In this document: positions 2,467 to 30,414 of the stretch, one piece after another
How positions within the stretch are numbered: the stretch's first letter is position 1
Layout: each line of letters begins with the position of its first letter
Assembly (NCBI RefSeq): GCF_905475395.1
Contig: NC_058337.1
Coordinates: 100,682,368-100,746,367 of the forward strand
Direction of reading: 5' to 3'
DNA from: Chrysoperla carnea
Lineage: Eukaryota > Arthropoda > Insecta > Neuroptera > Chrysopidae
DNA: 64,000 nucleotides
Position numbers and translations under genes: made by a program
The notes under the pieces: model-generated
What the model was told of the DNA's origin: nothing
What the model saw: only the letters and a program-made list of their open reading frames with translations
The model's database searches: none

Positions 2467-5400
2467 CTAAATAAAAAATTGTGAAAATAAATTACAAGCT
2501 CCAAGTATTGGAATACAAATAAAAAGAATTAATTTAAATTTAGTTAATTTTGCTCTTTTTTTTAGTGACGCTATTTTTAATAAAGATGGTAATGTAAATA
2601 CATAGACAAAACCACTTAACGCACCAATATACCTATAAAAAAATACAAATATTTTACATAATTCACAAGTGAAAATAAACAGTTAACTGGTTAATGATTG
2701 AAATACCCAATGTATATTATTCCCTATGGTTAAAATCTAGAATCGTGTTTGGTAAAAAAAAAATTCGTATTTGGTTTTTGAAAATTCATTAAAGTATTCT
2801 TTATAAATATATCCTGAATCTTCAGGCCCGGATTTGGAATCTTGGGAAAAATTCTTCGGTTAAATTATGGGTCTGTGCGAGATAGAAGAATTAAACACGG
2901 AAGATATAACATTGAACTGAGAAGACTATACGGTGAGGCAAATGTAGAATAAATAAAGGTGTAGAGATTTCAGTGGTTGGGTTATATAATGTAAATGATA
3001 ATATGGTGAAATTGTCGAAGATTAAGTAAGGGAAGTGGGCATAAGTTATGCAGCAAACCAAGGCTTAGTGTGGCTACTCACAAAAAATTTGCTTGTCCAT
3101 CTTTTATTTTTAGTCTCTGTAATTCAACTACGTAATCCACAAGTCTGCACCTCCTGCCAGTAAATTCAAGATATACATTCGTGAGTACCGATGCTTTTTT
3201 GTTATCAAATATTTTCACCAGGGGAACTTTCAAAAGCGGTAGCTGCCCACTCTTGCCTTTCCCTCGATATCATGTATGGTCATTCTAATAGACTGTATAA
3301 AGTACTCACCTGATTAGTAATCCAATGCTTGGTAAAAAGCATGCAACTAATATACATATAATTACTATAACAAGATTAAATGAAATAATCCATTTTTGCG
3401 GAAATTTTATTTCTGTGTAATCAACTTCAACGTCCTGCGCTTTATTTTTTTTAACAAATAAACTGAATACATTTATTCTTAACATGTATAATGTTAAAGG
3501 AAATATTGTACTTAATTGAAATAGTAATAAAATTCTTGCAAACAATGTCATTGGATCATTTTTTTCGAAATTATTTAATATATTCTGAAAGAAATAAAAA
3601 ATATATATATATTAAGGGAGCTTTTAGCTGGAGAGATGTTATAAGGGATAGTGAAAAAGGAAACGTTGGGTACTCGCGTGACAAGTGGAAAACTTATTGT
3701 CCAAGAATCCTCAGATTATTCTAGTGCCTGTAATTAGAGTCCCAAGCTTTGGATAAAAAACTTAAATTTGTATACAAAGCCTAAAAGCAATAGCCTTAAG
3801 TTAGCTTTAAAAAAATTAGTGAATTTAAAAAAACAGTTATATGAAGGAGCTTAATTTGAACCGCTGAACCGGCAGGGTGTCAAACTTGAAATCGTAACAA
3901 CCCAAGCGTTGAGACCTACTCCCACATCCAACTCCCTTAAGTTTTTTAAGTTTTCGAGTGTTCAGATCGCAATCTGAGCAGTTACCAATGATCGTAGATC
4001 CAAGAATCGTAACAAACCGACTGACTGGTTGCAATAAATCTCTATGAAGTTACCAAAGTAGCAATAAGTATTTTGAACTATGAAATGATATATTGCCAAT
4101 TTTTCTCTACTTAAACAGTCACGTATGGTTATCCACGCCGGTTGGCTGCAAAATTGTTAATCTGTTGCCAGCCTGCTGAAGCCTTAGTGTGCGGGTGCCC
4201 AAATATATCTGGTTTTTTTTGTTTATACTTACATCTTCGATACAAGATTTAGCCAAAGGAAAACTTGAATAAAATAAAACACCAAGTATTAAATACGAAG
4301 CTATAATTAAAATATATGCTATGCTAAGATCTCGTCCCTGTAAAAAAATAACATAAAGATTAATATATTTTAATATTGAATGTTTTTAGTTGTTCTTGAC
4401 AGAATCATACTATATTTTTTCTACAAGAATCAGGACGTAAATATTCAAAGAGCTTCTGTTTATAAATAATATTATTACGGGAGGTAGCGTAACATTTCAA
4501 TAGGTCATCAATAATAGCTTTTTGATACTACATTGGAGCACTGAGCTAAACTTACTCAGTTAATGGTGTTGCTTAATGCGATAACAGAGAAAGTTAATGA
4601 AAAAAATTTTTGGTTGAAAAAAATAATCGAAGATATCCTGATATATAATCCTGTTTTTCCCGGGTGGAAATATTATTTTTCTCTTTGGAATTCCTCTGAA
4701 GGTCCTTGTTTCATCTCTTTCTTTCTAGTGTCTTGAATTTTGATTAGAATATATCTGATATAAGGGGTATAGTAGCTTCGATAAACCCTATAACCCATTT
4801 GCCTGAAAATTTTTTAACCGAATTGTATATATTTAACTTACATTCTTTTTTTGATTTCGATTCTTTTTTATAATTGATAAAATGACGTTGTGTATGTTAA
4901 AACTTAATGACAGCATTCCAGTTAATGCTGTAAATGTATTTTTTATAAACGGCTCTTCATTTAAATTCAAATTAATTCCCCATATTGTTGATTTTGTGAT
5001 AACAAAGATTATAATGTAGAAAATACTTATTGTACCTAAAAATTTTTTTCAATATTGAGCTTTGTATTAGAATTTGTTCTAAACGGTAAAAGTAATAGCA
5101 CAAAAGTGATCTAAAATTTATTCTTGAATTTTTTCAATAGATGACAGCATTTATCTATTTTTGCTTCCCGAAAATTTATAAAGTTTGACAGCGTGAGCGC
5201 ATTCTCTTTTCTCAATACTGTAAACTTTTGTTTCTGCAGTTAGGCCACTCTGGTTCTCATGTCCTCAAATAAATTTTTTGCATAAAATTAAAATAAGTAT
5301 AATTTGACTAGCAAATATAGGAGGATAAGATATAGTATCTAGAGTACAATGTACCTTGAATCAATCTCTAGTTTCTCTACAGTCAGTTATTGATTTTTAA

Positions 5401-7525
5401 TGAACAATATTTGTATTTTATCAGAATATAGATAGGCTGGAATTACACGGGCCTGCGGGTTTTTTGGTCTTTGCGCCAACTCTGTGATTACGGCCACTCA
5501 ATGGTACAAAGGTTTGGCCATGTCAGCTATTGGAAGTTGTTTAAATAATCGTCATTTTGGTTTTGAAGTTCAGGTGTATGCGAAGCTTAAGTGGGACATA
5601 TTTTGGAGTTAAAAACAATATTAATCTACTTTAATTTCCAATCGATTGGCCGACAATTTATTTGATGGCGGCATTTAACCTGAATAATTTTTTTTAAATT
5701 TACCTAAACTGTTAAATTTTGTAAAAAATGTAATATTGGAACTATTTAAAATTGGGAACAATAATATTCCCAAAAACACAGGAACAGTTGAATATAAATT
5801 CCATATATGGTCTGTAATTGATGAATCATAAACATTTGTCGCATTTAAATCTATTATTTCACTTGAATTTTTCCAATAGGCGCTTTTTTGACATATTACA
5901 TTCGCCGGACCACTTATTATACTTTTTGAATCATTTGTATTTTGAATTTTGATAATAATAAATTGAACAGAATTATAAAAAAAATTTGACATTAATACCC
6001 AAAACACAACAGATATACCCAATAATACAATTATATTAAGCTTTTCGGCGATGTGTTGTGCGCTTTTGCCAATTAGCGTTCGACATAATGTTGGTAATTC
6101 TACTGCTTTCAGTTCACCACCTAGAAACAATGGATAAAAAATTAATCTATAAGTGCCTATGAAGCTATTGTATCATACTGACAGACTTACCATGATCTCG
6201 ACTAACTTGTACACAACAATAAGCAGTATATAAACAAAATCCTCCAAGTAAAATTACTGCTATAGTTCCAGGAATAACTCCTGCCATTTGTATACCCCAT
6301 GCCATTGCTAATAATGAAGTTCCCAATGTTGTATTCCATATTGAGAATCTAAACATACAAAAACATTTATTTATAGAAAAGGAATGTGAAATCTACTAAT
6401 TGACTCATCATTGTAACTCCGGATTGCCAATACTGGGAGGTTGCATTGTGAAAATAGAATTTTTCGAACTCTTCTGTTAATTTGACTTTATTTCGAGTCG
6501 ATTGGTGAAAATCCCATCGAATGGTAAAAATCGTTATTTTTGGGTCTCTTAACAATTAACAATCAAGCACTTTAAAATACAATTAGGCCAAAAATTTTTG
6601 CGGGATGTTGTTGAGTAAGCTTTGCACTACAAATAAAAATTATATACATAGTGAAATTCCGATTTTTTTCATACACTTTTTAAGGGATAAAATCGTAAAA
6701 ATCGCGTCTTTTCTAATTTTACGAATTTTTTATTCGAAAACTGGAGGGCTCAGAGAAAAATGTCTAAGAGCAATTTTGACACTTATTATATATAGTTTAA
6801 ACCATATCCTACCGGGTCATCCGCCGGCAATCAACAGGTCTATCAAGAGAACATTTCACAAAATGTAAGTTTTCAAACTATTTAATTAACGTATCATGTT
6901 TAAATTAATATTCGTTGAAAGTATTTATCAAGTACTATTATCGACGTTACATATTTCTCTAAATTGCAAATCACATGTCTTAAAATTTAAAGGGAGACCA
7001 GTGGCGAGCGAGCTTAACTCGCGCTCGAGGCACAATACCATTTTAGCCCCCCCTCTTTCATTCGAAAACCATATAAAAATAAAGTTATGGACTCAAACTG
7101 GGCTTTAAATTTGAGACCAAGATTAATTTTTTCTTTGAGAGCTTATATCTAGCCCAATATTCTCGTGACTTTTGGAGCTTTGTATCGGGCTCTATGTTCA
7201 TTTGAATATAAGAAGAAATTGAAACTTTTTATTATTTTCTGGCCGAGCAAACCAAGGGTATGCTATTTATTGAATTAAAGTTGATCTATAAGGGTTTTAA
7301 GATGTATGTTACAGACAAATATGGCGAAATGATAAGGGTTAAATATGGCGAAATGATAAGGGTTCCGTTTCTTGATCTTTGATGACGTTTGATTGAAATA
7401 TGTTTAGATTAATAAAAAACTTACATTGTTATAAACGAACTTTGCGTGGATTCTGTTTTCTGCTTTTTCTCTGGGGTTGGCGGTGCAATATTACTTCCAT
7501 TCGATACTGTAAAAACCTTTGAATT
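2467..7525 (-). CDS. SLC38A9-type transporter core, tandem copy A (seven exons, no own N-terminal exons found)
   Basis: Exons on the minus strand: 7525-7425, 6348-6191, 6120-5704, 5035-4842, 4337-4233, 3584-3310 and 2632-2467 (stop TAG at 2469-2467). All have GT-AG borders and compatible phases; the total is 1,416 nt, or 471 codons plus stop. The product matches the SLC38A9 membrane core: TM1 reads TIFSIWNTTLGTSLL, followed by VFWVLMSNFFYN, TVPVFLGILLFPILN, ALTGMLSLSFNIHN, GRDLSIAYILI, ARILLLFQLSTIFPL, ACFLPSIGLLIRY and a final ACNLFSQFFI. Luminal-loop N-glycosylation sequons (NSS, NAT) are present. Every exon aligns one-to-one with exons 4-10 of copy B. The frame opens in phase 0 at an acceptor, and its first in-frame Met lies inside TM1, so it needs upstream exons: unseen ones, or the shared exons 1-3 at 24-30 kb. 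There are no stops or broken splice sites, so it does not look like a pseudogene. Role by family: lysosomal amino-acid (arginine-sensing) transport. Confidence 0.88.
7317..7364. repeat. 24-bp perfect tandem duplication
   Basis: AAATATGGCGAAATGATAAG followed by GGTT occurs twice head to tail (7,317-7,340 and 7,341-7,364). It lies just downstream of the exon 4 donor of SLC38A9 core copy A, within the intron. Confidence 0.9.
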
Positions 7526-9204
7526 CTGTAATTTAAATTTTAATCAATCTTAAAAAAAGATTAATGTTAAACAAACAAATACACACTTTTTTCCAAAACA
7601 TTTTTTAAATTTAATTTAATTGTTAATACTGGAACACTTTTGGTTACTTAAGTTAGAAGAAACAGCAAAGTTTATATTTAATGTTTTTAAAAATTGCACA
7701 AACGGTAGCATTATTTTTTTTAAAACAAAAATGATGTAATTTTTTATAAAAGAACATAAGCAATTAATGTGGAAAAAATTTCGTAAATTATGGAGAAAAT
7801 TGAAACTTGAATGAATTTTTAAAACATATTAACTACAATATAATTTTGTCTAAATGGAAATGCGAAAATAGGCAATGCGCATTGTGTAGTGCCTACAGCA
7901 CTACACTGTGTAGTCACTCTATTAGCGAGTGCCGTAGGATTTCAGGGATTTAGAAAGACAGCAGAGGCTCAAGGAAGAAGATCAAGGTAAGCAAATACGT
8001 AGAAATAATAACAAAGATAAAAGTATTATCTGAAGTATTATTTACCTTAGCATCAAAAATTGCTCAGTCTGTATATTTACTGATTTCTTTCGTCAATCAT
8101 ATTAAAACGACACATGTTGTGGGGGAAAAAATATTTCTTATAGCATCTATGGTCGTAGTGACAGCGTTTTCCCGTAAATCGAGTTGTATCGGAGTATCTT
8201 TTGTCGGAAGGCGTCCAAAACAGCATTTATCATAAATCAAACTTTGCAACATTTATTATGCTGGCATTTTGGACGCGGCGTTTTTGATTTACAGTTTTTT
8301 ACAGAAACTACTGAATAAATTTTTATTCTTGATGTACTGAATGTATTACTGTCAAAAAATTCCATTCATCTAAACTAAAAAGTTATTGTGGCTCGATTAT
8401 TGTCCTAGAGTTTCTCAAAGACACATACATAATACCTGATTTCATTGGTTCTGGTTTCACTTTTTGATTTTGGTTCCACTGGGTAGAATATCAGCAAAAA
8501 TTGAACTTGTTTTTAAGATTTTCTTTATAATTTAGGTATATAAAAAGTCAGCAAAACTTCCTTTGCCATATTTGGTTTAAAAAATGATATTTTGACGTAA
8601 CAAAAACTACAGGCAAATCCTGTACAACCGTCTAATTTCTTAATTTATGAATGATTTACAGGAAAATCTCACCGCGATGACCATGTATATAAAAACCATT
8701 TTCACCTCCCAAATATGTATCGTTTTAACATGTGGTTACTGTGATATGGTTCAACTTTGTGCATTTATCGATGCCATTGTAAAGACCATTAAACGTTCAA
8801 ACGTAAACTTAAACTTTCAACTACAATTTTTCGAAGAAAACAAAAATGTTGAAATTTAATTGACATAAATAGGTAAATTTTTTTGGCATAGCATAGAGCG
8901 TCAGATGCTGGGTGTAAATGAGAGTAAAAGATAGGATTGTTGAAAGTTAAAATGTTAAGAAAAAAATAATCTATCAATATGTTACCGCGGTAACATAAAG
9001 ATATTTGGTTTGTTTGACAATATAAATTTTAATAACAATATATTTTACTCTCATTTAAAACGTACTTCTATTCGCGACTCCAAGAAACTATAGGGGGCAC
9101 TGCAATAGCGATTGAGGGGGTTATTTTATCAACGCCCTTGGGATAACTATACTGAGAAGATTTGTCCGCTATACACCATGCGCATGAAAGTTTTCAGAGC
9201 TTTT

Positions 9205-9455
9205 CTCCAAAACTATACAAGATAGAAAGTTGAAAATTGATAGGCAGCTTCGAATTGGTCTATAGACATAGGAAACGCAATAAGTGAATTCTTGACCACA
9301 GTCAGTGAGACAGAAAGCTTTCCTTCGAAACTATACAAGATAGAAAGTTGAAAATTGACACGATGCTTCGAATTATTGGTCTATGGATCCTTACATCATA
9401 CCAACCCATAGAGACAATACGATAAAGCTGTATAGACATAGGAAACGCATTTTAA
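9205..9455. repeat. Locally repeated block with a tatagacataggaaacgc end
   Basis: The segment 'aaactatacaagatagaaag..ttgaaaattga' occurs at about 9,211 and again at about 9,331. The phrase 'tatagacataggaaacgc' occurs at about 9,262 and 9,438. A related piece ('ccacagtcagtgag.tagaaag') recurs at about 9,789. It looks like a scrambled duplication of one short element. No coding content was recognised. Confidence 0.6.
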
Positions 9456-9739
9456 CAAATAAATAAATGTTTATTTATTTGTACTTGACTTTTACCAATC
9501 TAGGTATACCTGTTATTTGTTTAATTTAATTTATTTATTTATACTAAAGAAGATTACCAATGTATGCTACGTTTTTTTTTTTTTATCAAAAACTTTTAAT
9601 CCCGGATCCTCTGCTGCTGAATGAACTATCTATAATATTTATTTAGTTTTACCTTGGTTAAAATTTATACCTTAAACTTAAGATTTATTGTGACTTATTC
9701 TATATAAAATGTATTTTTATCAAAAGAACAAATAAAATT

Positions 9740-9743
9740 AATA

Positions 9744-9777
<34 letters not shown>
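9740..9777. repeat. AAT trinucleotide microsatellite
   Basis: About eleven near-uninterrupted AAT/TAA units precede 'gtgaatctttgtccacagtc', at the edge of a dispersed repeat. Such tails often mark retroelement 3' ends. Confidence 0.8.
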
Positions 9778-11531: not shown

Positions 11532-11537
11532 TTTATT
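11532..11537 (-). terminator. Candidate poly(A) signal of SLC38A9 copy B
   Basis: AATAAA on the minus strand, about 130 nt past the TAA stop at 11,670-11,668. Support is positional only. Confidence 0.3.
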
Positions 11538-11667
11538 CTTACCTATTGTCACGAATATTTTGAAATCAATAGTTAATAAATTTCAAAATAAAAAATCAAA
11601 ATTTCACAAGTAAGTTTTGTTATTTAAAATTCAATACATTTTAGAAGCGATGCGAATAAATAAATAA

Positions 11668-14600
11668 TTAATTTGCTGAAATGAAAAACTGTGCGAATAA
11701 ATTACACGCTCCAAATATTGGAATACAAACAAAAAACATTAATTTCAGTTTAGTTAATTTTTCTTGTTTTTTTAGTGATGCTATTTTCAATAAAGATGGT
11801 AATGTAAATATGTACACCAATCCACTTAATGCACCAGTATACCTATACGAAACGGAAAAAATTATTTATTAATCAATATCCATGCTAACATTGTAAATTC
11901 GAAAGGGCTAAATAGCCTGGAGCAGGTAAATAGATAGATCGAGTACTGCTTCTTACGTAAAATTCTATTTCGTTTTTTAGAATAATAAAATTTTGTTAGA
12001 AAAGGATCAATTACACTAAAACTCATAGTTTATCACTATACCTATCTCTATATATTATAGATGTAAAATTAAGGATGTTTGTTCTTGTTTGTTTTTTACG
12101 CTTTCACGCAAAAACTAATTTATGGATTTGAATGAAACTAAACAATAATATACCTCATACATCAGAATAGCACATGAGTTATAATTTATAAATATATTTA
12201 AAACAAAAAGTTTTTTAATCAAATTTAATCTAACATTTAAAAATAGTAAATGTAAAAAAAATCATGGCCATCTTTTCTGATATACTCAAAGAATTATGAC
12301 TATTTTATTTAATAAAAAATTAAAACTGTTCATATATTTTACCTGTGTAAAACAATCCCTGCTATTATTTCGAGTGTTATGGAAGGGGGATAAGTGTGAG
12401 CAAGAGGGGTGAAGGCTATAACACGGCGGCCTTTACGAATCTTTACTTTTAAACCCAGCGAAGCGGGCGGGTATCAAGCTGATTCTTAATGAAATTTAAA
12501 ATGGTTAAAAATGAAGACATTTTGACACAATAAAGACAGAAAAGTTTTGTTAAATAAGATGTAAATCGAAGTGTACATTATAGAATGAAGAAAGTCATTC
12601 GGCATCCGATATGGAACTAAATTTTTTATAGTAAAATACCCCTCTCCCCCAAGAAGTATGTAGAGATTTTTTGACCCTTCGCCCCCCCCCCCACGGAACC
12701 CTTGCGTAATTAATGAATGGTCCCTAAACGAGGTATCATTAAAAATTTCATTTTTATTCGAAAGTTCCATACTATATTTTGCGTGATATACAGTGTGCTA
12801 ATTAAGTCGGCACCCGATCTTGTTATTTTTACGGTAGATGGATAATATTGGATATCTGACCATAGTTTTCTTGGACAAATATCGAATATGAATGCAAAAA
12901 AATTGACATATGATTATATCAAATTGAATTCTAGGTCTTACCAGACTTTATCAAGAATTACTTGTTTTCATAAAACAAATAATAAAAAAGTTTTACATAT
13001 GATGTCAATTTAATTGGACACACTGTATAATACTAGTGTATAATTACTATAGTTTAAATCAAATTTTCTGCATTGATTGCATTTTTAAACGTTATTGCGT
13101 TTGGTTAATTACTCACCTGATTAATGTGCCAATTTTTGGATAGAAACAAGCAAATAATATACATATAACAACAATTATAATATTAAATAAAAGAATCCAT
13201 TTTTTTGGAAATTTTATTTCTGTATGATGACTGCTCGAAGTTTCCATCGTTTCACCCAGTTCAGATTCTACTTTAGTTTTTTTAACAAAAAGACCAAAAA
13301 CATTTATTCGTAACATGTATACTATCAACGGAAATGTTACAGAAATTTGGAACATTAATAAAACTCTTGCAGTTAGTGTCATTGCATCACTCATCAGGAA
13401 ATTATCAAATATATTCTAAAAAAAAAAAGAATGCTAAGATAACATTAAGAGTGAACGAGAGTGATTTAAAAAAATTTTGTTTTCATTAAAAATTTCATAG
13501 GCCTGCGGCGCCCCTACCTCTATTCCCGTACCTTCGAAATTTTGGCAATCGCACAAAACCAAATCCACTTGATATGGGTAATATATGTTGTAAGACAACT
13601 TCCTTCAAAATTTACCAAACTTTTACCATTTAGAACTTCCCGAAAAATCGTAAAAACCCCCCAAAATTATTAGTTTTATACATGCTAGAAAGATTGGATT
13701 TTGAACAATCGACTCGAAATAAAGTTAAAATTAACAGAATAATTCGAAAAATTTCATTACCCACATCACATCTATCCGGAAAAAGGGAGAAACTCCCTAA
13801 AATTATGTTTTTAAGTTATATACATGCTCTAGAAAGATGCAATTTTTTGCATTCAAACCATTCTGTTTATTTGATTTTATTTAGAGCCGATTGTCGAAAA
13901 TCCCACATTTCTTGTATGTATAGAACTAAAAAAAACGTAATTTTGAGGGGTTTTTCCGAGTTTCCGAGAGATTGCGATGGGTGTAAATAAAATTTTCCCA
14001 ACTCTTCTGTTAATTTGTCTGTCTTCGGGTCTTTTGTTGAAAATCCCAACTTTCTAGGATATATAGAACTGAAAAACTTAATTTTGGGAGGGTATTTTCG
14101 ATTTTTCGGAGAGTTCTGAATGGTCAAAGTTGTGTCAATTTTGTAGAAAGGTGTCTTACAATATTGCTATCAATTGGAATTGATTTTGTGCGGTTGGAAG
14201 GTTACTCATTTTCTACAGCACTTTTTGGGAGTGAACCACAGGCCTATTATAGAAGACTCTTCTACAAGTATTTCAATCCCTTAAAAAAAGTTAATATTTC
14301 ACCACTCCTTTTAACATTCTAGCCGTTTTTGTAAGAAAACTAACATAACATCAATTTTCCTAGAAAAAAACTTCAATCGGAGACAATGAAGTGTTACCAA
14401 ATATTTTATGCAGACTCAGGTCACTTGTGCTTAGGAGTATCTATAAACTTTTAATGAAAACCAATTTTGAAAATAGCGTATTATTTTAAAAATAAAAATT
14501 AAATCTCAGTTAAAAATATCGTACATTTCTAAAATGTTTTTCAATCTACCTTCGTTTTCAAAGAAATATAAAAAATATACTCACATCCTTAATGCAACTT

Positions 14601-17600: not shown

Positions 17601-20600
17601 GTAAGTAATTGACTTTACATCTTACCTAAACAGTTGAATTTCGTGAAGAACGTAATATTTGAGACATTTAAACATGGGAACAGTAATATTGCAAGAAATA
17701 TTGGCACCGTTGAATGTTTATCCCATATAACACGTGAAGGTTGTGCAGCTCTTATAGTTGCATTAACCAGTTCAAATTTATCGTTACCAGGGCATATAAC
17801 ATTGCCCGATGCAACTGTATAATTACCATCCCCTGACGTGTCTTGTATTGAATCAATAATAAATTGAACAGTGTTATATAAAAAATTTGTCATTAATATC
17901 AAGTATACAATACTTGCACCCAATAATACAACTATACTAAATACTTCGGATAAACGTTGCGCCCATTTACCCAATAACATATTACATAATACTGGTATTT
18001 CGACTGCATTCAGTGCACCACCTAGAAACAATAAAAATAGTTTTGCATATTAGTTCGGTAAAGTGGTAAATATTATGGTTCGGTAAACGGATAAATAGAG
18101 TTGGTAAATTGATAAAATCTCGTTTTTACACTCGTTTTTACATAAAATACATTTTAAGTGATGAAATGAATGGCATTTGTGTGTTATTTATTCTATAAAT
18201 GATCTCTAAATCTTTAGGCATCAATATTTCAAAAACTATGGTATATATCAAAAAATTTTACTCTTAATTTTCTCTAATTTTTCCCAAGTTCTATCCTCAA
18301 AATTTGAAACGTAAAACCCAAATATTTGCATACACTCCTTTTTGGGGAACGTCCTTTAGGTACCATAAAATGAAAAATGGGAATCGTACTTCCTCAAGTT
18401 CGTGATCCTAAAGGAACTTAACGATAAAAGCATTACTTACCATGATCTCGACTAACTTGTATACAACAATATGCAGTATATGCACACAATGCGCCAAGTA
18501 AAATAATAATAATAATGCCAGGAATAAATCCCGCTTTTTGTATAGCCCAAGCCATTGTTAACAGCGAACTGCCCATTGTTGTATTCCATATTGAGAATCT
18601 AAGGACACAAAAATAAATTTTTAATTTCTACGTTTGTATTTTTATACAATCTATATCTATAAAAGAAGAAACTGGTAGATTGGCTGATAAACGCACAGCT
18701 GAAAAATCTGGGTCCAGAAGGGTGTTATAAGTTTGACCACAATGTGAGTTTGTCTGTCTGTGGCATTGTAGCTCCTCCGAAGGGTGTTATAAGTTTAACG
18801 TGTCTGTGTATCTGTGCGTCTGCTTGTGGCATCTTTCTGTGGAACTCTTAAGCGGATGAATCTATTTTGGTTTTTGTTTTTTTGTTTTGTTTTGTTTTTT
18901 TTTTTTTTGAAAGGTAATTTGATTGAAATTATTCTTAGCTATTTTTCAAGGTGCGAGTTTAGGATTCCGCAACCGAAAACAACTAGAAAAGAGACGAAAA
19001 TCTTGAAGCGGCTGAGCATTAAAATCGATTATCGGTTTACGAGCTACTATGCCACAAACGAATCGATCAGGCATGATTCTAAGGTATCGTAGCTCCTAAA
19101 CGGATGATTAGATTTTGATTTTTTGTTTGTTTGAGAGACAATTTGATCGAGAGGGTTCTTAGCTAGGTTTCAAATCCGAGTTTAGGGTTCTGTACCCAAT
19201 AACAACTAAAAACAAAAAACAAATAAATCAAAAATGGTTTAATCGTTTAGGATCCACGATTCCACTAACGAACCTGGTTTTTTATCGAGGGTTTTTAATC
19301 TATGTTTTTAATTTGTGGTGCAATTAAAAATTTTTGATGCCTCCGCCAAAAAGTACTTTCAGTTTTTCAAACATCTTTCATAAAAGAGCCACATATGAAA
19401 CTTCAGTCTGTTATTATTTATTTATGAAAAATGGCGCTATATACTATTTGGATTAAAGATGAAGAACCCCATTGTTGAATGCAACAATCAAAATAAAATA
19501 AAAAAACAAACATTTATGTAAAATTGAAAATGGTAAAAATTAACTTACATTGTAACAATTGAACTTTGTGTCGAAACTGGTTTTGGTTTTTCGATAGTAT
19601 CTTCGGTGGATATTGAGAACACCTTTGAACTCTAAAATAAAATTTAAATATTAATTTATTATAACCAATTAATAAACTTATTAAATTTAATAAATTTAAT
19701 AAAATATTTACACTAAACAGTAAACACACTCTTTTCAAAAGCATTGTTTATAACTACAATAATGGTTAACACCGGAAAAATTTTTGATTGGTCAAAAAAA
19801 ATATAAAATACAAAAAAAATGTAACGTGTAATGTTGAATATTTTAAAAAATATAAAAAGGGTCACATTATTCTTTTATTGTTTAATATTATTTAATTTAA
19901 CAAAATAAAATAAAGCAATTTTATGCTTTGAACAAATTTTGTCAATTGAATATAGAAAACTTTTAATCATTTGTAAAAAAAATGTTTAGAAAGATGTTAT
20001 TTGATTTCTAGTGCAGAACGCAGTTATTCTGCAAATAAGAATCATCCCATTATACAATAGACTAAGAGCCTAGGGCTAAAAAATACCGCATGTAAGTAAA
20101 CTTGAACAACTTATTATTGCATTATTTATTATATTTTTATGTTAAAAAGGGAACACTCAATTTTATAAGAGCTGTAAATTAATATTTGAGTTTACCAGCT
20201 TACTAAAAAAATCACAATCAGACAGGCGTTGCATCGTCGTACGGATGCGTCATTATCCCGAAATCTTTCTGACTTTATTGTACAAAGCTGCAATTCTATT
20301 TGATTCTATTGATTAAAAAACGAATTCCATTGATTAAAAACGAAGAATTTATAAGCATTCAAAGATTATTGCCTGTCTCTTTTATACAAAACAGAGTTTT
20401 ATGTGTTATCTCTATGGCGATACTCAACATTGACGTCACTTTTAAGATATCTTCCTCTTTGTTTAGTTAAGAGTTCTAAACGTTCATATTTTGCGTACTT
20501 CTAAAGATTTTAAAAAATCAACTTCACTTTTCGGATCATGCAGTCAAAATTCTTCAACTGAAGTGATAAAAAAAAGTATTAATCATCCCAATTACCAGGT

Positions 20601-23600
20601 CATTCTTGCGATTGCTAGTATATTCTAGGCCATGGATAATTAGCTGAAATTCGGAGTGCAGGATTTTTTGTTAGGCTAATCTATGTTATAAAATGATGAG
20701 CTTATTTCAGAAAGCTATGCACAGTTGTACAGCCTGTCAAAAGTGAGCTAGAAAATCAATAAGTAGATTGGCTTAGTGTCAAGAATGTTTCTTTTGGGGA
20801 GTATCAACTTCCCAACCCCTTCCCCTTTTTTGGTATAGCAAAATTACGTTGTTTTGCTATTTTAAAGGCTTGTACTTCCCCATTAGTTCTCCAAACTAAG
20901 CGAGAGGGTTGAAAGTTGCTATTTAAATTGAGTTGGAGTCAAAGATGTGTCTTTTGGGGACTATCAATTTCTTAGCTTTCTTTCCCTTTTAAAGCCTACA
21001 TACCATGTTTTTTCGTGATTTTTATGAAAAGCGCCTAACAGTAAGAAAATTAAATGAGGGGTAAATATGACTTCAATAATGAAATTGAGATACCACAAAT
21101 TTATTTTAAATTGTGATTTAACAAAAAGACTAGATTGTTTTTGTTTAAAGTAATTTTGAGACGTTTTAATTTTTTTATGGAATTTTAAGTTGATCAAAAT
21201 AAGAAGAAATTTCCGTTTTTTAAACGCCACAGTAAATATTTTCTGTGGTTTTGGATTGCCCATGTCTTTTTCGTTCTATATTTTATAGGTAACAGAGATT
21301 GTTCCAATTCTAAAAAAATAATTTGGAATCTTATATCTCGGGATCTATTAATCAATGTGATGAAAAAAAGTGATCGAATTTACAGCGGATTATTACGTTT
21401 TGAGGTCAGATATAAGTACAAGTAATATAAGCACAGATAAATTTTTTTATTCGAATCGACCTCAATCGTTTAATAATAATATGTCTAAATTTTAGAAATA
21501 GTTATATGATAGTTTAAGAGTCGAACTACTTTAAACCAAAAATAATTTTAAAAGATCTTCAAGTTATTGCGATTTTTTCGTCGGGCTCTTGGTCTAAAAG
21601 GAATGCTTATGATGTATGCACCTATACAAGATGATGCAACTTCGAAGAAGTATTAAAACGAAGAAGTTTTTTTTGTGTAAATATAATTATATTAAATGTT
21701 GGGTCAGTCGAATAGCTGGATATAACTGGGTGAATTGATTATAAATTCTTTCCACGATACCACAATACATACGCAAGAAAGATCTGATAATTTGAAACAT
21801 TCACGGAGACTGTTCAGATGAATTAAGCGTGTGTTATTCACCATAGACGATTTTGACCATTGCATTGTTTGAAATTATATCACTAATAATATGCAATGGG
21901 TATTTAAGAATGTATAAGCGCCAGGGAAATTTTGGATAAAAGGCTTGGTTTTTTTATATGAAGTTGGGCTAAGTCCAAATCAACTAAAAAATTTCAAAGT
22001 CCAAATCAAAAATTTAGGAGGGGTTCAAAAGTAGGCATTTTTAACATTGGTTTTATGGGAAAACGGTAGTTGGATGATATGTTTTCGTTGATTTCTCCAA
22101 AACTAGTCGGTGGAAATTAAAAAATAACTATTTAAAGTTAAAATTTTAATAAATTATAGAAAACAAAAAAATCCCTTTATGCTCGACTAATTAAGAATGT
22201 ATAAGCACGGTAGTGGGGACACAAATTTAAAAAAAAATATATATTTTCAATTTTGATGGTGAATTATTTTATAACTTGACAATACAAGACGAAAAGTAAG
22301 AATACAATTTTTCGATATCGGAATAATTTTCAAAATATCGAAAATTGAAAATTTTCTTTAATTATTTAGCTTTCGATATTTCTAAAACCAAGGCAAGATA
22401 TCGAAAAATTTTATTCTTAGTTTTAGTCTACATTCATAAAGTTCATAACAAAATTCATCATCAAAGTTGAAAATAATAAATAATTTCAACCACAAGTCTA
22501 AACTTGTCTTGGCGCTCGTACTACCTTAAGTTTTCTTAATACACATATTCATAGTTTATGGCTAAATTATTGAAGTGCCACTGAATATTTTTACAAAAAA
22601 AGAATTTTTATAAACATTGTGGTGAAAATCAAAAAGTAAAAAATAAAATGTACTCCATAGTTTTCTTATGGAAAATGAGATTCGCTCAAAAATTTTAGGA
22701 AAAAATTCTTTTAAATTTACTTGTGGGTATATAGCAAACTTTATATTCGATTTTCAATAAAAAGCTTTCAAGTTCAATGATAAGAAGATTTCATAACTGG
22801 ACTGAGATAAAAAAAATATTTAATTGGAAAGTTTTTTCTTATTTAAAACGTCATATATTTTGCTGGTGAAACTATGCGATTTAAGAAACAAAATTTTAAA
22901 AAGTATTCTTCTAAATTCTAAAAAGAGCTTTTCATTGAAATTGAAGCATTTTTTTCAATAAAACGTATTTTTCGTGTTTCAAGCATATTTCATAGAAGTA
23001 AAATGAAATATCCAGTATCAGCTAATACCTAAAGTATGTATCTTATTTACTTGAGACAGTTCATACTCTTGCTTTTGAAGAGGGCCAGTGTCGTAGAAAT
23101 CCATTATAAAATAAATTAGATTTTTGTTTGTATTAGACGTTTTTAGTTTCTGCTATTATAAATGAACATGAATTCAACATATTTTAAAAACAATAATCTT
23201 TCCATTACTTAATTGATGATTTTGAAGCTCCAGAATCCTCTGTGGCAATTTTTTTTGCATTCATGAGACATTTCGTACTTGGGTCATAACCATGATAGTA
23301 AAAAGATTGTAATTAAAAAAATTGCCCGTCTTTAATTTAATTTAACTTCAAGCAAAATTTTTTAGAGCAGCGTTGGTTATAAAGAAACTTAAGTTTTCTC
23401 CAATTCCGCTTATAATAATTCATTTAAACATCATACTTTTGTGGTTTATAAATGATCAATAGCAGGTTTTTCGAAGTAGACGAGATACACCAGTCAACTG
23501 AATCCAAGCTCTACTTTTTGGCAAAAATCAAATTTAAAAAAAAAGTTAGCCTTTTGTATTTTAATTAGGAAGAAAGATTGAGATGGTCTTCAAACCGTTT

Positions 23601-26600
23601 GCTCAAACAATTTCATAATGATACATAAAATATTTATTCAAACAACTTTTGCAATAACTTTGGGGGGGGGGGGGTTGGCTGATGGCACAGAGATTGAAGA
23701 TAGAGCACGCAAGTTTAATATAATTATACGTTATATTAATTTTTGCATTCCGCGCAATTGAATTGCATATGCATAAATTTATAAAATTCAATATGCGCGG
23801 AGTAGCACTTAAACAATTAAAAATTTAAATAAATTTCGATTTTTGCCCCAATTTTGTGATCAAATTTTTGTATTCTATTAATACGTATTTCGACTACCGT
23901 GTAGTCATCATCAGTATGAATTAGCTAATCGTAATTACTCTTACATTGTCTGTTTTCGTTACTAATTTGGTAGCAGTCTGCAATTTTCAAATGAAGTTCA
24001 ATAACTTGTATATAAGAGTTTATCTCACCCCCTCCCCTCCAAGATAAGGGCATGTAAATATTGTAACTCCCCTTCTTTTCGGTACCCTTACGTTGTTAAT
24101 GAATGGCCCCTAAGTTGTACTATTCTGAATATTTCCTTGATAAAAGTAAGACTACGATAATTAACTTTAGGATTTTCGAAAATTAAAACTTACCGATACG
24201 AAATTTTTGTTCGATGTAAAACTTGGAATTGTATAAATTGATTTCTTTTTATAATCCTCGGATGTTTGTACTTTATTTTCACTTTTCTTTACATTTGGTG
24301 ATAATGATTTCCTAAAAAAATATAGAACATACTTAAATAATTATTTATATTCAAAATATAAATATTTATTATTTGTTATAAAAGTTAGATAAACTTAGTA
24401 ACTATGCATTTTTGAAATATAAATATTTATTAAATATCTACCTACACGCTTTGCTTGGCAATTTCAACTCTAAAATCAAAGACTGCCGCGTTATATAGTC
24501 TTTAATTTCCTTCCCCAAGCCAAATTTTTTTTTCGGCCGATGATTTTAAACGATTTTAAACGAGGTGAAAATTTATTTTATAATATAAAAAATTTTGAGT
24601 AACAAGAGAAAAGAACAATCGACTGAGTTAATTGTTGAAATATCTTGTTCACAAATTTATTTCACGGTATACCTTACACATAACATACCTACTATATATA
24701 TTATTTAGCCTCCTTAATAAAGGACCATTTGCGACCTCGTAAGTGAACAATGTTGCTTACGAAAAAATGTTTCAAACAAAAGTTTTTTTATTATTTCATA
24801 AGGATTATTCTTTTACATTTAATCTTTTGTACTATCTCATATAGTTTACAAGATGGGTTCGCAGATCCCAAGACTCAATTGACCTATATTGCCCACTAAC
24901 GAACTTTAGAAATGTATTTGTACAATTTTTGTTCGAAAATAAAAAATTTAATCACCTAATATTTTGCCAAAAAAATTTTCAGTGGAAGTTTATCAAAACC
25001 TATTGAAACTACTAACTTTTACATAAATTACCAATATTATATAAAGGCACCCACAATATTAGATAGGAAAATGATTTTCCGTGAAAATATTTGTAACCCA
25101 ACCTAATATGTTCTTTGGGCCATTATAGATCATTCAAAACTACTTTTAACGAGTAGTTTTCGAGCTATTGGATAGGTAATTTAACGGAGAGTGTTCTTAG
25201 CTATGTTTCAAGTGCAAGTTTACCCGAAAAAACTTAAAAATTGACGATGCTCTCGAAAATCGGTTCAGTTTGGAAAAGGCTTTAATAGAAAAGTTAATTT
25301 GGTGAAGAGTGTCCTTTAATATGTTTCAAATACGAGTTTAGGGTTCTGTACCCAAAAAGTTTATCGGGGGTTTTTTAAATTATGTAAATTTCACTTGTAG
25401 CATATCATTAAGAAAATGGCTTTCTGTGAAACTTTTTCAAACCAAAATGTTCTTTAATTCAAAAACTCTCACGATCACAAAACTTTAGTTTTAGTTTAGT
25501 TTTCTTAAGTAGGTACAAGGTACATTTACAACTTTCCAACATGTTTTGTACGATTTTATTAAAAATACAAATATTTTGGTAAGACTTGGTTTTGCATATT
25601 TACAAAATTTAGTCTAATCAAAATATTTGTATTTTTCAAAGAAATCGTTGGATAGACATGCTCGAGCGTTTTATGCACTTCAAATTGGTTTGCTATGATA
25701 TTTTTATATGCTACACATTTTGGAAGATGCAATCAAAATTATTCTGGACACTCAATTATTTATTTATATTATCTAAATTAATATTAAGCGCTTTGAATAT
25801 TATTTCGTCTAATTAATAATAGATGAGAATAAAACTTGCTTTAATGCCGAATTTTGAAAATATCAACTTTAAAAAGTGATTGGATATGTTTCAAAACTCA
25901 AAAGTACTTTTTATTACAGCCTGGTGTCATAAATTTTCATTATCAGTATGCAGTTTATATTGAACTGATTATTCCAGAATAACTTCAATGTCAATTGACC
26001 TGAGCATAACAGTGTCAATACTTCCAAATCGAAAATATTTTATATCTATATCGAATATTGATTTCTTAATAAGCAATTAACTAGAATAATAAAACTTACA
26101 GGTGTAATTTTGAAAACGGTGAATTGTGTAGTCGATTTTGTGTATCTAAATACGATTGTGATTGATCAAAATCACTTGTTTCTGAACCCGGAAACATAAT
26201 TTGATGATGTGCTCTGTAATTAAACAAATTAATTTGTTAATAATTGAATATAAGTATATATTTAGTTTTAGCTACTTAATGCAAATTAAAAAAAGGCGTG
26301 AAGATTTTAATTGCGTATAGTATTGAATAATAATTTTCGAATAATTAATAAATACCTAAGTATAGATATTATCGTCATACCTTGCTTGTAATATATTTTG
26401 TGATCAATTGTTTAAAGTATATTTTAAATTAAACATAATATTGAATATTATTTATGTAATTTCACTATATTAAAATATTTATTTGAAATTTAAAACTGTT
26501 TATGATTTTTCAAGGAATGAAATTTAAGTTTCAAATAAATTTATATATAAATATTATATGTATCTAATTTATTAAATACTGAACCAATCAAATGTAATTT

Positions 26601-29600
26601 TAAATTAATTTTTATAGGATTCGGATTTATTAGTATCAATATACTACCTACAAGCTAAAATCTCCAATACATAATAGACTAGCAGTTATTCGGCCGCTTC
26701 GATGGGTAATTTCAACTTAAAAAACAAAGACTACTACGTTGCTTTCATTTCCCTTGCTCTCACTTATGCTTCCTTTTGTTCTTAATTTCATAGGCTTTAA
26801 TTTTTTGGTACCGAACCCTAATTTTTATACCATGTATGTGAAATATATCAAGGTATACTAAGTTTAGTCCCAAGTTTGTAACGCTTAAAAATATTAATAC
26901 TTTGAACAAAATTATGGTATAGGTGTTCATAAAATCACCTAATTAGTCCATTTCCGGTTGTCTGTCTGTCTGTCGTCTGTCGTTTGCCCGTCTGTCGTCA
27001 AGATTATTCAAAAACGAAAAGAGATATCAAGCTGACATTTTTATAGCGTGCTTAAGGCGTAAAAAGTGAGGTCGAGTTCGTAAATGAGCAACATAGGTTA
27101 ATATCATTTTATTTCATTTTAAATTGGGTCTTGGGACCGAAAAATTGGGTCTTGAGAAAAACTGTCGTTTGAAAAATTTTTTCGTAAACATCACTGTTTA
27201 CCCGTGACAGTTTAAATTATGCGCAAATTGTATAGTATGTATCATTTGGGAATATCAGTTATATATGTGTGACATGTAAGATGTGTAATGTGACAAAGTA
27301 ATCAACACTGTCTATACATGGTATTTCAACAATTAACTCAGTGAATTGTTTGTTTTTAGTGAATTTTACTATGCATTTTAAGTTTTGGTCTGTTGGAACT
27401 TCTGAACAGTAAGAGAAATGTTAACTGTTCGTTTTTGACAATTTTGAAAGTCTCATTCAGATTTTAGATTTGGATTTCTTTTGTTAGTTATACCAGTTAA
27501 ATTCTACAAATTTTAGTAGAGTAGAAATTGAACATAAGAAATTGCTTTTGAAAAATCTTCAAAGCCTCTCAAACTATGGATCTGAATCTCTTGATTTAAG
27601 TTACACTTGTCGAATTCTACAAGTTTGGAGAAGATTTGTAGCGAAATTATACGCATATTAGGGGTTGGTTAACTGTTTGTAGATGGTATATTTTAATCCA
27701 TGCATCTCTCGGTTTTGATCAAATGAGTGGAATTCTAAAAATTTGCCACTCTACAAAGTCCTCATATATTATCGATTTGAATTTCTTTGTTTTACCTATG
27801 GTTAGGTTATATTGGCTGTCCACGAAGGACACACTTAGGCTATAGAGCCCATTATGATATCATATATTTGTTTTACCACCTTTCCGCTGATAATTTCATT
27901 TATCTCAGTTTCAGAAGCTGAGTGCACCTCCTTCATGCATATGCCATGTACTACACCAACCCATCACAACCATTAATTAAATTAATTTTGTCGGGACGGT
28001 GGGAATCGAACCCGCTACCCTAAGCATACCGCGAACGGAATTGGTAGTTTTGCCTATACCTTGAATAGAATTTTACACTTTTGGAGGAAAGGAGAGACAT
28101 GCAGAAGAAGAATAATTTTTTTTTCTTTTCGAAGTGCAAATTTGCAATTGAGATCTTGTTGTATAAGTCTTGCCTCTAAAAATTGAATTGTAATTTTTTT
28201 CCTTAGACGAATTATTTTGCCAAAAATTAACTGCCGAAAGTTTGCATTCCTTGCTACTTTTGAGTTTCTTTATTTGAACCTATAGAACCATTGCGTAGGA
28301 CAGTAATTCTCAACCATTTTTGTGTTCCGCCAAATTTTAGAAATGTTTACAGTAAAAATTAAAAAATCGGTAAAAGAGTGCCGAGACAAAAATTAGATTG
28401 AGAATCACTGATTAGGTTTTTAAAAACTGAATAAAATTCTTCCAGTGACTTTCCTCCTGAAACGAACATTTTGTCAGATGAGAGCCTAAATGGCCGAGCG
28501 GTCTAAGGCGTTAGTCATAGAACGTTAGACTATTTAGACTTAGGTTGCGGGTTTGATTCCAGGCAGCGGTAGTGTGAACAATTTATAATTAATGAGAGTG
28601 CACAATTGATCACATTGTCGTCGCTTGGATAAGAACGAAGCAAACGACTCAACCCACATCAAAAATGTAATTGTAAATATATTTGACATTGAATAAATAA
28701 AGATTAACAAATAATGATGTGGGTGGCCTCTGTGATTAGGCATATGTCACAAAAACGGAGGTTAAACCCCCATTATTATTATATTATTGTCAGATGTATG
28801 CCAAGACATTCAATTTTTCAAAGCAAATTGTTAATGATAAAAAACTAAACCGGCAACAATTTTATTTCGCAATCTCGAAAAATACTCAACTGTAGAGTTC
28901 ACGATTCACCAGCTCTCTGAATGTACATACCTACGGGCTACGAAGCAATAAATTTGAATGTATGTATGTGCGACACGCACTTGGTCGTTTTTTTATAGTA
29001 TTTTATCGTAAATCATAAAAAATGAAAATTCCAGAAGTAGACTTGTGTTGTTTAAAATTTACATGATAAAATCGTCATTTGTTATGCTAAAAAATTAGTG
29101 TCAAAATTTGAACTAATTGCAATCAATATTTTTAATCTTGCATGGCGTCATAATAATCAAAAAAAAATTTTACGGTATATATACGGTTTAAGAGAAATAT
29201 TTATCAATATAAATTACTAAATGTCGACTTATCGTTTTATTATGACTAATGAATCGTTTCTGAAATTTTGATAACAATTTTTAAAATATGAAAAATGACT
29301 ACATCGTATTCATAAACATCAAGAATATTTCAAAACGGTATGGTTTATGTTAATACATGATGGTTTATAACGTAGACGAAGAGTAAGAATAAAATTTTTC
29401 GATATCTGCCGTTTTCGAAATACCGAAAGCTAAATAATTAAACAAAATTTTCAATTTTCGATATTTTGTAAATTACTTATGATATCGAAAAATTTTATTC
29501 TTACTTTTCGTCTTATATTGTCAAGTTAAAACATAATCACCATCAACATAGAAAAACAATATTTTTTTAAAATTTGTGTCCCTACCACCGTGCTCATACA

Positions 29601-30414
29601 CCCTTAATAAGTCAGGCATAACGGGTTTTCTTTTGTTTTCAATAATTTATTAAGGTTTTAGCTTTAATTTAACCATTTTACGCAACGCCAAAATTTTTCA
29701 CTGGAAGCGCTGGCATCCATTTTACTGTCCCTACCATGACTTCGCACACAACGAATAGTCACCTGATAGTTTTATTTGGAAAGTTTTAAGGAAGTTTCGA
29801 AAATGATTTTATAGATTTTGATGTGCTCTTTTCGAATTTATATTTTGCTACATTGTATCTTTGCCGCTTACGCCGCTACATTGGGAAAATGGTGTCGAGA
29901 AGCAGTTTTTTTTGACAATATCTCCTTTTCGAGTCATTTTACGAGGAATATATATAAATAAAAAATTAAACCTCAGAAAATTTCCTACGAATTATGTCTA
30001 CAATCTTATTACTTGTGTATTGAATTTAAAAAAATAGAAATATAAATTAGAGCAGCCGGAATACAAGCAAATAATAAAAAATTGGGATTACTACAGAATT
30101 ATAAACAACAATTATAAAAAATCTGATGAAATCAAGCCAAAAAATTACGTATTTTTCAAGCATTTTATTCCAAGCTCTTTCAATTTATTAAACTTAAATA
30201 CTTTTTAATAACGTAACAAATAAATCAATTAAAATTATTACGTTTATCCATAAAAATGTAGAACAATAACAAAATTATCAACAAAAAATTGGTATTTTTA
30301 TTTATTAATTAAATTATTTACATACCCAAAACTAGCATTTGATGAATCTGAACTCAATAACGGTTGAGATTCACTATCAGTTTCGAAAGAAACACTTCGC
30401 TTGAATTTATTCAT
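11668..30414 (-). CDS. SLC38A9: SLC38A9-like lysosomal arginine sensor/transporter, complete ten-exon gene (core copy B)
   Basis: Coding exons: 30414-30326, 26213-26100, 24311-24194, 19631-19549, 18598-18441, 18021-17626, 15227-15040, 14689-14585, 13415-13117 and 11842-11668. All are GT-AG with matching phases; 1,725 nt gives 574 aa (human is about 560). Residues 1-134 are a cytosolic N-terminus. It starts MNKFKRSVSFETDSESQPLL, with an acidic dileucine-type signal (ESQPLL) of the kind used for lysosomal sorting. Around residues 60-67 it has SPFSKL, resembling the YYSRL part of the human Rag/Ragulator-binding segment. TM1 is IFSIWNTTMGSSLL. The core continues through ALTGTLSLSFFIHN (exon 7), GRDLSIAF (exon 8), ARVLLMFQISVTFPL and ACFYPKIGTLIRY (exons 9-10), and ends CNLFAQFFISAN. 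The large luminal loop in exon 6 carries NYT, NAT, NVS and NIT sequons. By family, it senses and effluxes lysosomal amino acids and signals arginine to mTORC1. Confidence 0.93.
12047..12480 (+). mobile_element. Possible non-autonomous Helitron-like element, copy 1
   Basis: It starts near 'tctctatatattatagatg' and contains 'ctttcacgcaaaaacta' and 'catcagaatagcacatgag'. It ends in 'cccagcgaagcgggcgggtatcaagctga', where GCGAAGC could form a small hairpin shortly before a CTRR-type end. A related copy of similar length lies inverted at about 57,510-57,915. The TC start, terminal hairpin and CTRR end are the Helitron pattern; the assignment is tentative. It lies in the last intron of SLC38A9 copy B. 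Confidence 0.4.
12791..13025. mobile_element. TA-flanked MITE (Tc1/mariner-type)
   Basis: A 235-bp element begins CAGTGTGCTAATTAAGT and ends in the inverted form (...AATTGGACACACTG). It is bounded by TA on both sides (12,789-12,790 and 13,026-13,027). There is no coding capacity. It is inserted in the last intron of SLC38A9 copy B. Confidence 0.75.
13620..14130. repeat. Foldback repeat cluster with 'caatcgactcgaaataaag' blocks
   Basis: The block around 13,690-13,760 (gattttgaacaatcgactcg) recurs in reverse complement near 13,870-13,905 and 13,995-14,060. It recurs again in intron 4 of copy A at about 6,420-6,550 (tcgaactcttctgttaattt). The ORFs at 13,682-13,990, 13,867-14,127 and 6,367-6,555 are translations of this repeat, not genes. 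Confidence 0.6.
15455..15633. repeat. MITE-like repeat with TTTTTGCCCC end, copy 2
   Basis: It matches 1,545-1,722: 'attagcaaagagtaacattc', 'gatgatgactacttggtagt', 'aaattggggcaaaaatc' and 'atcctagagttctcatttat'. The left inverted end is missing or degenerate, so this is a truncated copy. It lies in the intron between exons 7 and 6 of SLC38A9 copy B. Confidence 0.65.
16390..17280 (+). mobile_element. Decayed non-LTR retrotransposon end: RNase H domain plus zinc knuckle
   Basis: The 150-codon reading frame at 16,399-16,848 encodes a retrotransposon RNase H: CSAFQAEVMAIYEVCE (the Glu of the acidic catalytic set), SDITIFADSQASLKS (the catalytic Asp), then VNLVWVPGQRNIPKNCEVAELA, where the usual His-Gly-Gly-Asn-Asp block is degraded. 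After a frame break, about 17,020-17,115 encodes a CRSCDSEEEEETIYHLLCHC knuckle (Cys-Cys-His-Cys type). This order, RNase H then a terminal zinc knuckle, is typical of the ORF2 end of Jockey/I-type LINEs. No reverse transcriptase is seen, and frameshifts make it defective. It is inserted in the intron between exons 7 and 6 of SLC38A9 copy B, opposite to transcription. Confidence 0.82.
18700..19260. repeat. Dispersed repeat with 'ttagggttctgtaccca' blocks
   Basis: It contains two diverged tandem units. 'cttaagcggatgaatct..tttga.ag' at about 18,848 is matched by 'cctaaacggatgattag' at about 19,095, each followed by '..attcttagct..' and 'gagtttagg(g)ttc'. Related pieces recur at about 25,180-25,375 ('gagtttagggttctgtaccc'). 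It lies in intron 4 of SLC38A9 copy B. The ORF at 18,814-19,092 is a translation of this repeat. Confidence 0.6.
22191..22529 (-). mobile_element. TTAA-ended foldback MITE, copy 1
   Basis: 339 bp. It begins TTAAGAATGTATAAGCACGG and ends in the inverted form GGCGCTCGTACTACCTTAA. The interior is a long imperfect palindrome around 'tttcgatatcggaataattt' and 'aagatatcgaaaaattttat'. Other copies end at about 29,607, 34,925 and 62,575. TTAA at both ends suggests a TTAA target site, as in piggyBac-type elements; no transposase is present. Confidence 0.75.
23830..23985. repeat. MITE-like repeat with TTTTTGCCCC end, copy 3
   Basis: TTTCGATTTTTGCCCCAATT is followed by 'tacgtatttcgactaccgtg' and 'tagtcatcatcagtatg'. 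This is the reverse complement of the interior of the 1.5-kb and 15.5-kb copies. It lies in SLC38A9 intron 3. Confidence 0.65.
24735..24915 (+). repeat. Interspersed repeat family R, partial copy
   Basis: It contains 'tttcaaacaaaagtt', 'tttacaagatggg' and 'caattgacctatattgccca', all shared with the copies at 26.8, 34.1, 35.9, 41.2, 56.1 and 63.5 kb. It has no coding potential. It lies in SLC38A9 intron 2. Confidence 0.6.
26825..27300 (-). repeat. Interspersed repeat family R, long copy
   Basis: It opens 'ataccatgtatgtgaaatat', then 'aaggtatactaagtttagtc', 'caagtttgtaacgcttaaaa', 'aaaatcacctaattagtcca', a run of TCTG units ('tctgtctgtctgtcgtctg'), and 'aacatcactgtttacccgtg'. The same blocks in the same order occur at 35.9 kb, and inverted at 34.1 and 63.5 kb. 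The family is not recognised. It lies in SLC38A9 intron 1. Confidence 0.75.
27800..28046 (-). mobile_element. tRNA-derived SINE, family 2
   Basis: Read on the minus strand, it starts with a tRNA-like half containing a good polymerase III B box (GGTTCGATTCC within AGCGGGTTCGATTCCCACC), followed by an unrelated body. It is flanked by an 11-bp target-site duplication with one mismatch: GTTTTACCTAT (27,789-27,799) and GTTTTGCCTAT (28,047-28,057). The A box is not clear, so the head may be truncated. It lies in SLC38A9 intron 1. Confidence 0.7.
28481..28786 (+). mobile_element. tRNA-Leu-type SINE, copy 1
   Basis: The head resembles tRNA-Leu: A box TGGCCGAGCGGTCTAAGGCG and B box GGTTTGATTCC (polymerase III promoter elements). 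The body contains 'cacattgtcgtcgcttgg' and 'atgatgtgggtggcctctg', and the tail is ATT-rich. It is bounded by a perfect 10-bp target-site duplication, TTGTCAGATG (28,471-28,480 and 28,787-28,796), which shows LINE-driven retroposition. A second copy is inverted at 59,234-59,503. It is not a functional tRNA gene: the anticodon/variable region does not fold cleanly and the acceptor end is not closed. It lies in SLC38A9 intron 1. Confidence 0.9.
29355..29607 (+). mobile_element. TTAA-ended foldback MITE, copy 2 (5' truncated)
   Basis: It shares 'aaaatttttcgatatctgcc', 'cttacttttcgtcttatatt' and the end 'accaccgtgctcatacaccc' followed by TTAA. The left TTAAGG end is missing. It lies in SLC38A9 intron 1, close to exon 1. 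Confidence 0.7.

Follow-up and report, generated by a model that had tools for sequence, protein, structure and literature searches.

In Drosophila, the lola and mod(mdg4) genes join a common 5' part to alternative, complete 3' parts. A single set of 5' exons is combined in these genes with several in-frame 3' units, each of which carries its own stop codon and poly(A) signals, and the alternative part usually consists of one or two zinc-finger exons. We found the same layout at the DNA level in the SLC38A9 locus of the lacewing Chrysoperla carnea, where one 5' set is followed by two in-frame 3' units with their own stops and poly(A) signals. Here, however, the alternative part is a seven-exon membrane core, and its joining to the 5' set is putative. 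The SLC38A9 proteins of solved structure have one core, whereas the lacewing locus holds two cores for one front. A limited literature search returned no description of a two-core SLC38A9 among the matches listed.

The sensing of arginine upstream of mTORC1 has a patchy distribution among animals. Drosophila melanogaster is described as being without SLC38A9 in passages of two reports (PMC10957897, PMC13199448). An insect ortholog is known from aphids (ACYPI000333) and is given as 6.5 times higher in bacteriocytes than in gut (PMC6118303). The excerpted text of the same report lists aphid duplications of RHEB, Rag A/B, Skp2, and Nup44A and none of SLC38A9. According to the pertinent passage of PMC9994763, the N-terminal plug of zebrafish SLC38A9 (residues 75-90) inserts into the arginine site, and Rag GTPases are bound by this region as well. 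A lacewing that keeps SLC38A9 with two constrained cores behind a single N-terminus would show the ligand-reading part of this sensor diversifying apart from the signaling part.

Layout and copy number of the locus

We analyzed a window of 64,000 nucleotides (C1:100682368-100746367, GC content 29%), by which we mean the whole stretch of DNA under study. Rebuilding the gene from the minus strand gave three exons for the front, followed by two tandem cores of seven exons each, and returned exactly the positions 24311-24194, 19631, and 7525 as well as the outer limits 30414 and 2467 of the preliminary description. Exon 1 (30326-30414) opens with an ATG, stays in an open frame up to a gtatgt donor, and encodes ESQPLL, which we take to be an acidic dileucine-like motif. 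Exon 2 (26100-26213) is open between its AG and GT borders and runs from phase 2 to phase 2. Exon 3 (24194-24311), for which the genome search returned one place, ends in phase 0, so that the three exons total 321 nt. Core B (exons 4-10, 19631-11668) comprises exons 4B (19549-19631), 5B (18441-18598), 6B (17626-18021), 7B (15040-15227), 8B (14585-14689), and 9B (13117-13415), all with open frames and splice borders, and exon 10B (11668-11842), which carries a TAA stop and is followed by AATAAA hexamers beginning at 11537 and 11431. Core A (exons 4-10, 7525-2467) lies downstream on the same strand. It starts in phase 0 with exon 4A (7425-7525) and continues with exons 5A (6191-6348), 6A (5704-6120), 7A (4842-5035), 8A (4233-4337), and 9A (3310-3584), again open and with splice borders, up to exon 10A (2467-2632), where a TAG stop is followed by AATAAA beginning at 2432. 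All internal borders in the front and in both cores are AG...GT, stop codons are terminal only, and the phases of the seven exons are identical between the cores. Exons 1-3 amount to 574 amino acids together with core B and to 578 together with core A.

A second intact core, located further downstream in the same orientation, was first proposed from this DNA and is borne out by its open frames, its AG...GT borders, and its own stop. The same is true for the proposal that exon 3 can be read in frame into either core, since exon 3 ends in phase 0 and exons 4B and 4A both begin in phase 0. This phase match does not represent independent evidence for joining, because the two exons are duplicates of one exon and inherited their phase; it permits joining only.

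Genome searches covered the 559-Mb assembly (559,487,470 bases in 337 contigs). With core B as query, 13 matches were obtained at E values up to 1, namely 12 exon pieces of both cores and one match elsewhere (E 0.57). Core A recovered the same 12 pieces and again one match elsewhere (E 1e-4, 26% identity), at a site listed under the broader Aa_trans family. A query of exons 1-3, extended by nine residues of exon 4B, was run at E up to 10 and returned four matches, three of them being the exons of this locus and one lying elsewhere with E 1.77. The initial statement that no second set of exons 1-3 can be recognized thus extends to the whole assembly at the sensitivity of this search. As judged at the sensitivity of the searches used, we found SLC38A9 in the assembly as one front and two cores. 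No relatives of core A were detected by tblastn in viral contigs among 27 pattern matches.

Pfam matches on single open reading frames identify as neighbors an amidase (326-703, minus strand), presumably of the GatA type, SH3BGR (42536-43081, minus strand), and the C terminus of SAP130 (51704-52015, plus strand). No tRNAs were found in the window using bacterial settings, and no Rfam families were found in positions 1-32000 at gathering thresholds. Intron 6B contains an open frame on the plus strand (16384-16848) with similarity to RNase H (Pfam E 8.1e-5, which does not reach the curated cut-off), which is probably a retroelement remnant. A repeat of 87% identity is shared between positions 1530-1725 downstream of core A and 15456-15634 in intron 6B, and another one of ~83% identity occurs in intron 4A (6448-6516) and in intron 8B (13981-14048 and 13852-13905).

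Identity and divergence of the cores and the front

We compared the predicted proteins to PDB sequences using phmmer. Zebrafish SLC38A9 was matched by exons 1-3 plus core B with E 1.4e-83 and by core A with E 3.3e-76. The remaining matches at E up to 10 were at 0.58 and 0.8 for exons 1-3 plus core B and at 3.2 (PAT1) for core A; among solved structures, good matches are to SLC38A9 sequences only. The Pfam family Aa_trans is recognized in core A with 1.7e-30 and in core B with 1.5e-29. Both cores align with zebrafish SLC38A9 (6C08, 7KGV) from TM1 through the last residues, with 174 of 425 compared positions identical in core B and 161 of 428 in core A. Lysosomal location and amino acid transport are predicted for either core.

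The WNT..G.S motif of TM1 is retained by both cores, as are Y151, Y448, and S511 of zebrafish SLC38A9. In the TM1 arginine site (zebrafish numbering), both cores keep T117, G120, and S122 and share a Thr in place of M118. The cores differ at M119 (Met in B, Leu in A) and at T121 (Ser in B, Thr in A). These two pocket differences (in 18598-18441 vs. 6348-6191) raise the possibility that the cores differ in their ligand. Considering all eight N-plug-touching core positions as named in the relevant passage of PMC9994763, cores A and B agree at five (T117, Thr; M118, Thr; S297, Thr; T303, Asn; Y448, Tyr) and differ at three, with C363 (Ile in B, Val in A) adding to the two substitutions in TM1. 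A pH-sensing histidine in TM11 (zebrafish His532, corresponding to human His544; PMC13358448) is replaced by Phe in both lacewing cores. This feature is defined on six vertebrate species in the cited passage, and its absence consequently limits a claim of identical regulation rather than one of orthology. In addition, S528 of the zebrafish protein is replaced by Lys in both cores, and Arg155 by Cys (core B) or Gln (core A).

Cores A and B are identical at 288 of 456 aligned residues. The NG86 method returned dN 0.264 and dS 0.716 for the pair, and LWL85 gave dN 0.248 and dS 0.478. At fourfold sites, 49 of 92 positions agree vs. a fraction of 0.37 expected by composition. Judged by this divergence, the duplication of the cores is old. 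With dN 0.264 vs. dS 0.716, both copies appear to be retained by selection. With zebrafish SLC38A9 as the outgroup, 415 sites were compared (gapped sites dropped), 132 of which are the same in all three sequences. Core A alone has changed at 41 sites and core B alone at 26 (p 0.086), a difference by which core A is not clearly decaying. At the junction with the front, exon 4 starts with SKVF and conservative neighbors in both copies, and the rest of the linker has diverged.

The front exons 1-3, for which homology gives no support, were defined by an open frame and by splice signals, which we scored with rough models built from 12 to 16 sites, all from this locus. In the core-border model, likewise rough and trained on 12 donors and 12 acceptors from core exon borders, exon 3 has an acceptor of 13.0 and a donor of 8.7. 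The exon 1 donor (4.1, trained range 7.4-13.0) and the exon 2 acceptor (2.8, trained range 7.4-16.7) both score below the training sites. The locus-wide model assigns 11.6 to the donor of exon 3, with the 15 donors of the locus ranging from 7.6 to 12.9. Between 31.5 and 19.6 kb, exon 3 is the sole candidate for an internal exon ending in phase 0 at looser thresholds, and there is none at stricter ones. Five opposite-strand null pieces of equal size contained 0, 1, 0, 1, and 0 such candidates at the looser thresholds.

The front had been described at the outset as a Rag/Ragulator-binding N-terminus. We found this assignment to be unsupported, as the zebrafish N-plug region is not recognizable in exons 1-3, where its local score of 17 is equaled or beaten by 976 of 1000 shuffles. 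At the plug tip, the match is limited to an IPS tripeptide. Elsewhere in the window, no convincing match to the N-plug was found (best E 0.12, on the other strand), and no SLC38A9 chain in the PDB was matched by the first 140 residues. End-to-end alignment of the lacewing and zebrafish N-termini scored above 294 of 300 shuffles, and zebrafish SLC38A9 begins with a stretch similar to the acidic dileucine-like motif of exon 1, a resemblance matched by 44 of 300 shuffles. The lacewing front thus differs from zebrafish and human SLC38A9 in that the vertebrate N-plug/Rag-binding region cannot be recognized. Given that this region was recognized neither in exons 1-3 nor in the remaining window and that the first 140 residues found no PDB match, signaling of lacewing SLC38A9 to Rag is an assumption.

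The intron stretch preceding exon 4

We compared the flanks of corresponding A and B exons over up to 350 bases, starting 20 bases off the exon, in 12 flank pairs (the two flanks of the short intron 5 were excluded). The upstream flank of exon 4 contains an element in which 46 of 61 bases are identical (score 47, z 6.0), with 0 of 200 dinucleotide shuffles scoring as high, whereas for the other 11 exon flanks 12 to 164 of 200 shuffles scored as well. The element is located at 7581-7641 upstream of exon 4A and at 19724-19784 upstream of exon 4B (both minus strand) and is apparently noncoding. Weaker collinear similarity continues to about 7799 and 19959, respectively. When the 61-base block was excluded, the adjoining outer stretch up to these positions scored 40, a value attained by 4 of 1770 null pairs drawn from unrelated non-exon stretches of 350 bases. 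In the same null, two pairs reach the score of 47; they do so at 94 and 87 and look like repeats. The sequence from 60 to 330 bp ahead of exon 4 has thus been preserved in copies A and B, in contrast to the 11 other flanks tested, and this is a new feature of this locus. Given the observed synonymous divergence, its retention suggests that the stretch is under constraint. Exons 4-10 and a few hundred bases of the preceding intron have been duplicated in tandem, and both copies are intact and have diverged as constrained sequence.

Further similar stretches outside exons are found at 22091-22440 and 29271-29620, in introns 3 and 1 (score 94, an unnamed repeat), and at 8951-9650 in the gap before core A, where two adjoining stretches contain a common direct repeat (score 87).

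We considered several identities for the element, none of which was supported. Taken as a coding exon, it shows 16 differences in 63 bases, distributed 4/5/7 by codon position with no clear concentration at third positions, and the retained stretch offers only weak donors (3.7 in A and 2.2 to 5.2 in B, compared with 7.6-12.9 for the 15 locus donors). Taken as a dispersed repeat, the B copy recovered itself only in a genome search; this search missed even the A copy, so that diverged relatives could be missed as well. No Rfam match was obtained for the element. A docking/selector pairing was evaluated with the 63-base element as the selector and intron 3 as the docking region, and the best common site in intron 3 was equaled or bettered by 93 of 100 null pairs. 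The element could be involved in splice choice or could act as a core-proximal promoter. The latter reading is harder to sustain, because no usable start-plus-donor is present in the element.

The 5' end of core A

The sole ATG of exon 4A is out of frame, an in-frame TGA is located seven codons upstream, and the next in-frame ATGs lie inside TM1. Core A must therefore join an upstream coding exon. We searched the 4.1-kb gap before exon 4A (11667-7526) for a counterpart of exons 1-3 by tblastn and found none (best E 0.12, opposite strand). A splice-aware search of the gap returned no candidate for exons 2 and 3 and a single one for exon 1, which was equaled or surpassed in 9 of 22 null stretches. 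No candidate for an internal exon ending in phase 0 was found in the gap. Donor-like sites scoring at least 7 number five in the gap vs. 4.4 expected from the background rate, and with this ordinary count an unseen short first exon is possible. Two gap donors (7.8 and 8.4, at the low end of the locus range) are preceded by minus-strand ATG readings that end in phase 0, at 9439-9395 or 9409-9395 and at 8699-8673 or 8684-8673, respectively. Intron 3, by comparison, contains one trivial case of a phase-0 ATG with a donor. Among the 16 acceptors of the locus, that of exon 4A scores lowest (5.5 vs. 11.7 for exon 4B in the locus-wide model), and in the core-border model it reaches -1.0 vs. 7.6 for exon 4B, below all 12 training sites.

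Separate paralogs are the ordinary fate of tandem duplicates. Core A may be an independent SLC38A9-like gene with its own promoter, with one or several short, unrecognized 5' exons in 11667-7526 or in the introns of core B, and with a new signaling N-terminus or none. The gap is long enough to harbor such exons, two gap donors have a phase-0 ATG reading before them, and each core could have brought along its own promoter in the form of the retained stretch ahead of exon 4. Against this, a counterpart of exons 1-3 was found neither in the gap nor elsewhere in the genome, the gap yielded no internal exon candidate ending in phase 0, the donors in the retained stretch are weak, and its 63 bases bear no clear coding signature. 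The gap searches addressed counterparts of exons 1-3 and single phase-0-ending candidates rather than chains of several unlike 5' exons. We regard an independent paralog as a serious contender, even though we would not expect it to be correct.

The weak acceptor of exon 4A would also fit a duplicate that has recently been silenced, that is intact by history, and that is now rarely or never transcribed. No obvious promoter precedes core A, and slightly more changes have accumulated on A than on B (41 vs. 26, p 0.09). Such a duplicate is nevertheless improbable in our view, as the seven exons of core A are without a stop, frameshift, or broken splice dinucleotide despite a dS of ~0.7 (NG86) or 0.48 (LWL85). 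Finally, an assembly or haplotype artifact can practically be dismissed, given that 168 of 456 aligned residues are not shared by the copies and that the published Chrysoperla carnea assembly inChrCarn1.1 is described in its report with a contig N50 of 67.8 Mb and 337 scaffolds (PMC10116181). We conclude that the lacewing SLC38A9 locus is both genuine and unusual.

Exon 3 is the best 5' exon in sight for core A, and one front with two cores is consequently the most economical reading; that exon 3 indeed serves both cores we consider an even call. A fast-diverging, disordered N-terminus belonging to core A could have escaped our searches. In the shared-front reading, core A would lack its own promoter-proximal exons. 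Transcripts initiated at the promoter of exon 1 would sometimes extend past the poly(A) sites of core B, and exon 3 would then be spliced over core B to exon 4A, across an intron of 16.7 kb. This would yield another SLC38A9, identical in its cytosolic N-terminus and different in its transporter core. Core B would represent the default product, because its acceptor is closer and stronger. As core B has its own AATAAA hexamers, a transcript would need read-through to reach core A. We infer one promoter, with a choice made by splicing and by poly(A) use, and the retained intron element before each core may help to choose. The full model, in which a single promoter and cytosolic front feed two lysosomal cores and splicing is chosen by an intron element duplicated with the core, is tentative, and we hold it to be possible rather than probable.

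With one front in common, the two cores would monitor or export different amino acids of the lumen. One gene may thus make two sensors, if exon 3 joins both cores, which would allow an insect to exchange the ligand-reading half of an mTORC1 amino acid sensor and leave the signaling half unchanged. Sharing of exon 3 would also provide natural matched pairs for defining which core residues set ligand choice, and would offer a test of whether an insect N-terminus with no recognizable vertebrate plug signals at all.

Downstream of core B on the minus strand, a strong donor (TAG/GTAAGA, at 11542) overlaps the first AATAAA after the stop codon, at 11537-11542. Donors this strong should occur by chance about 1.2 times in the gap. 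This overlap could weaken polyadenylation and thereby favor read-through to core A.
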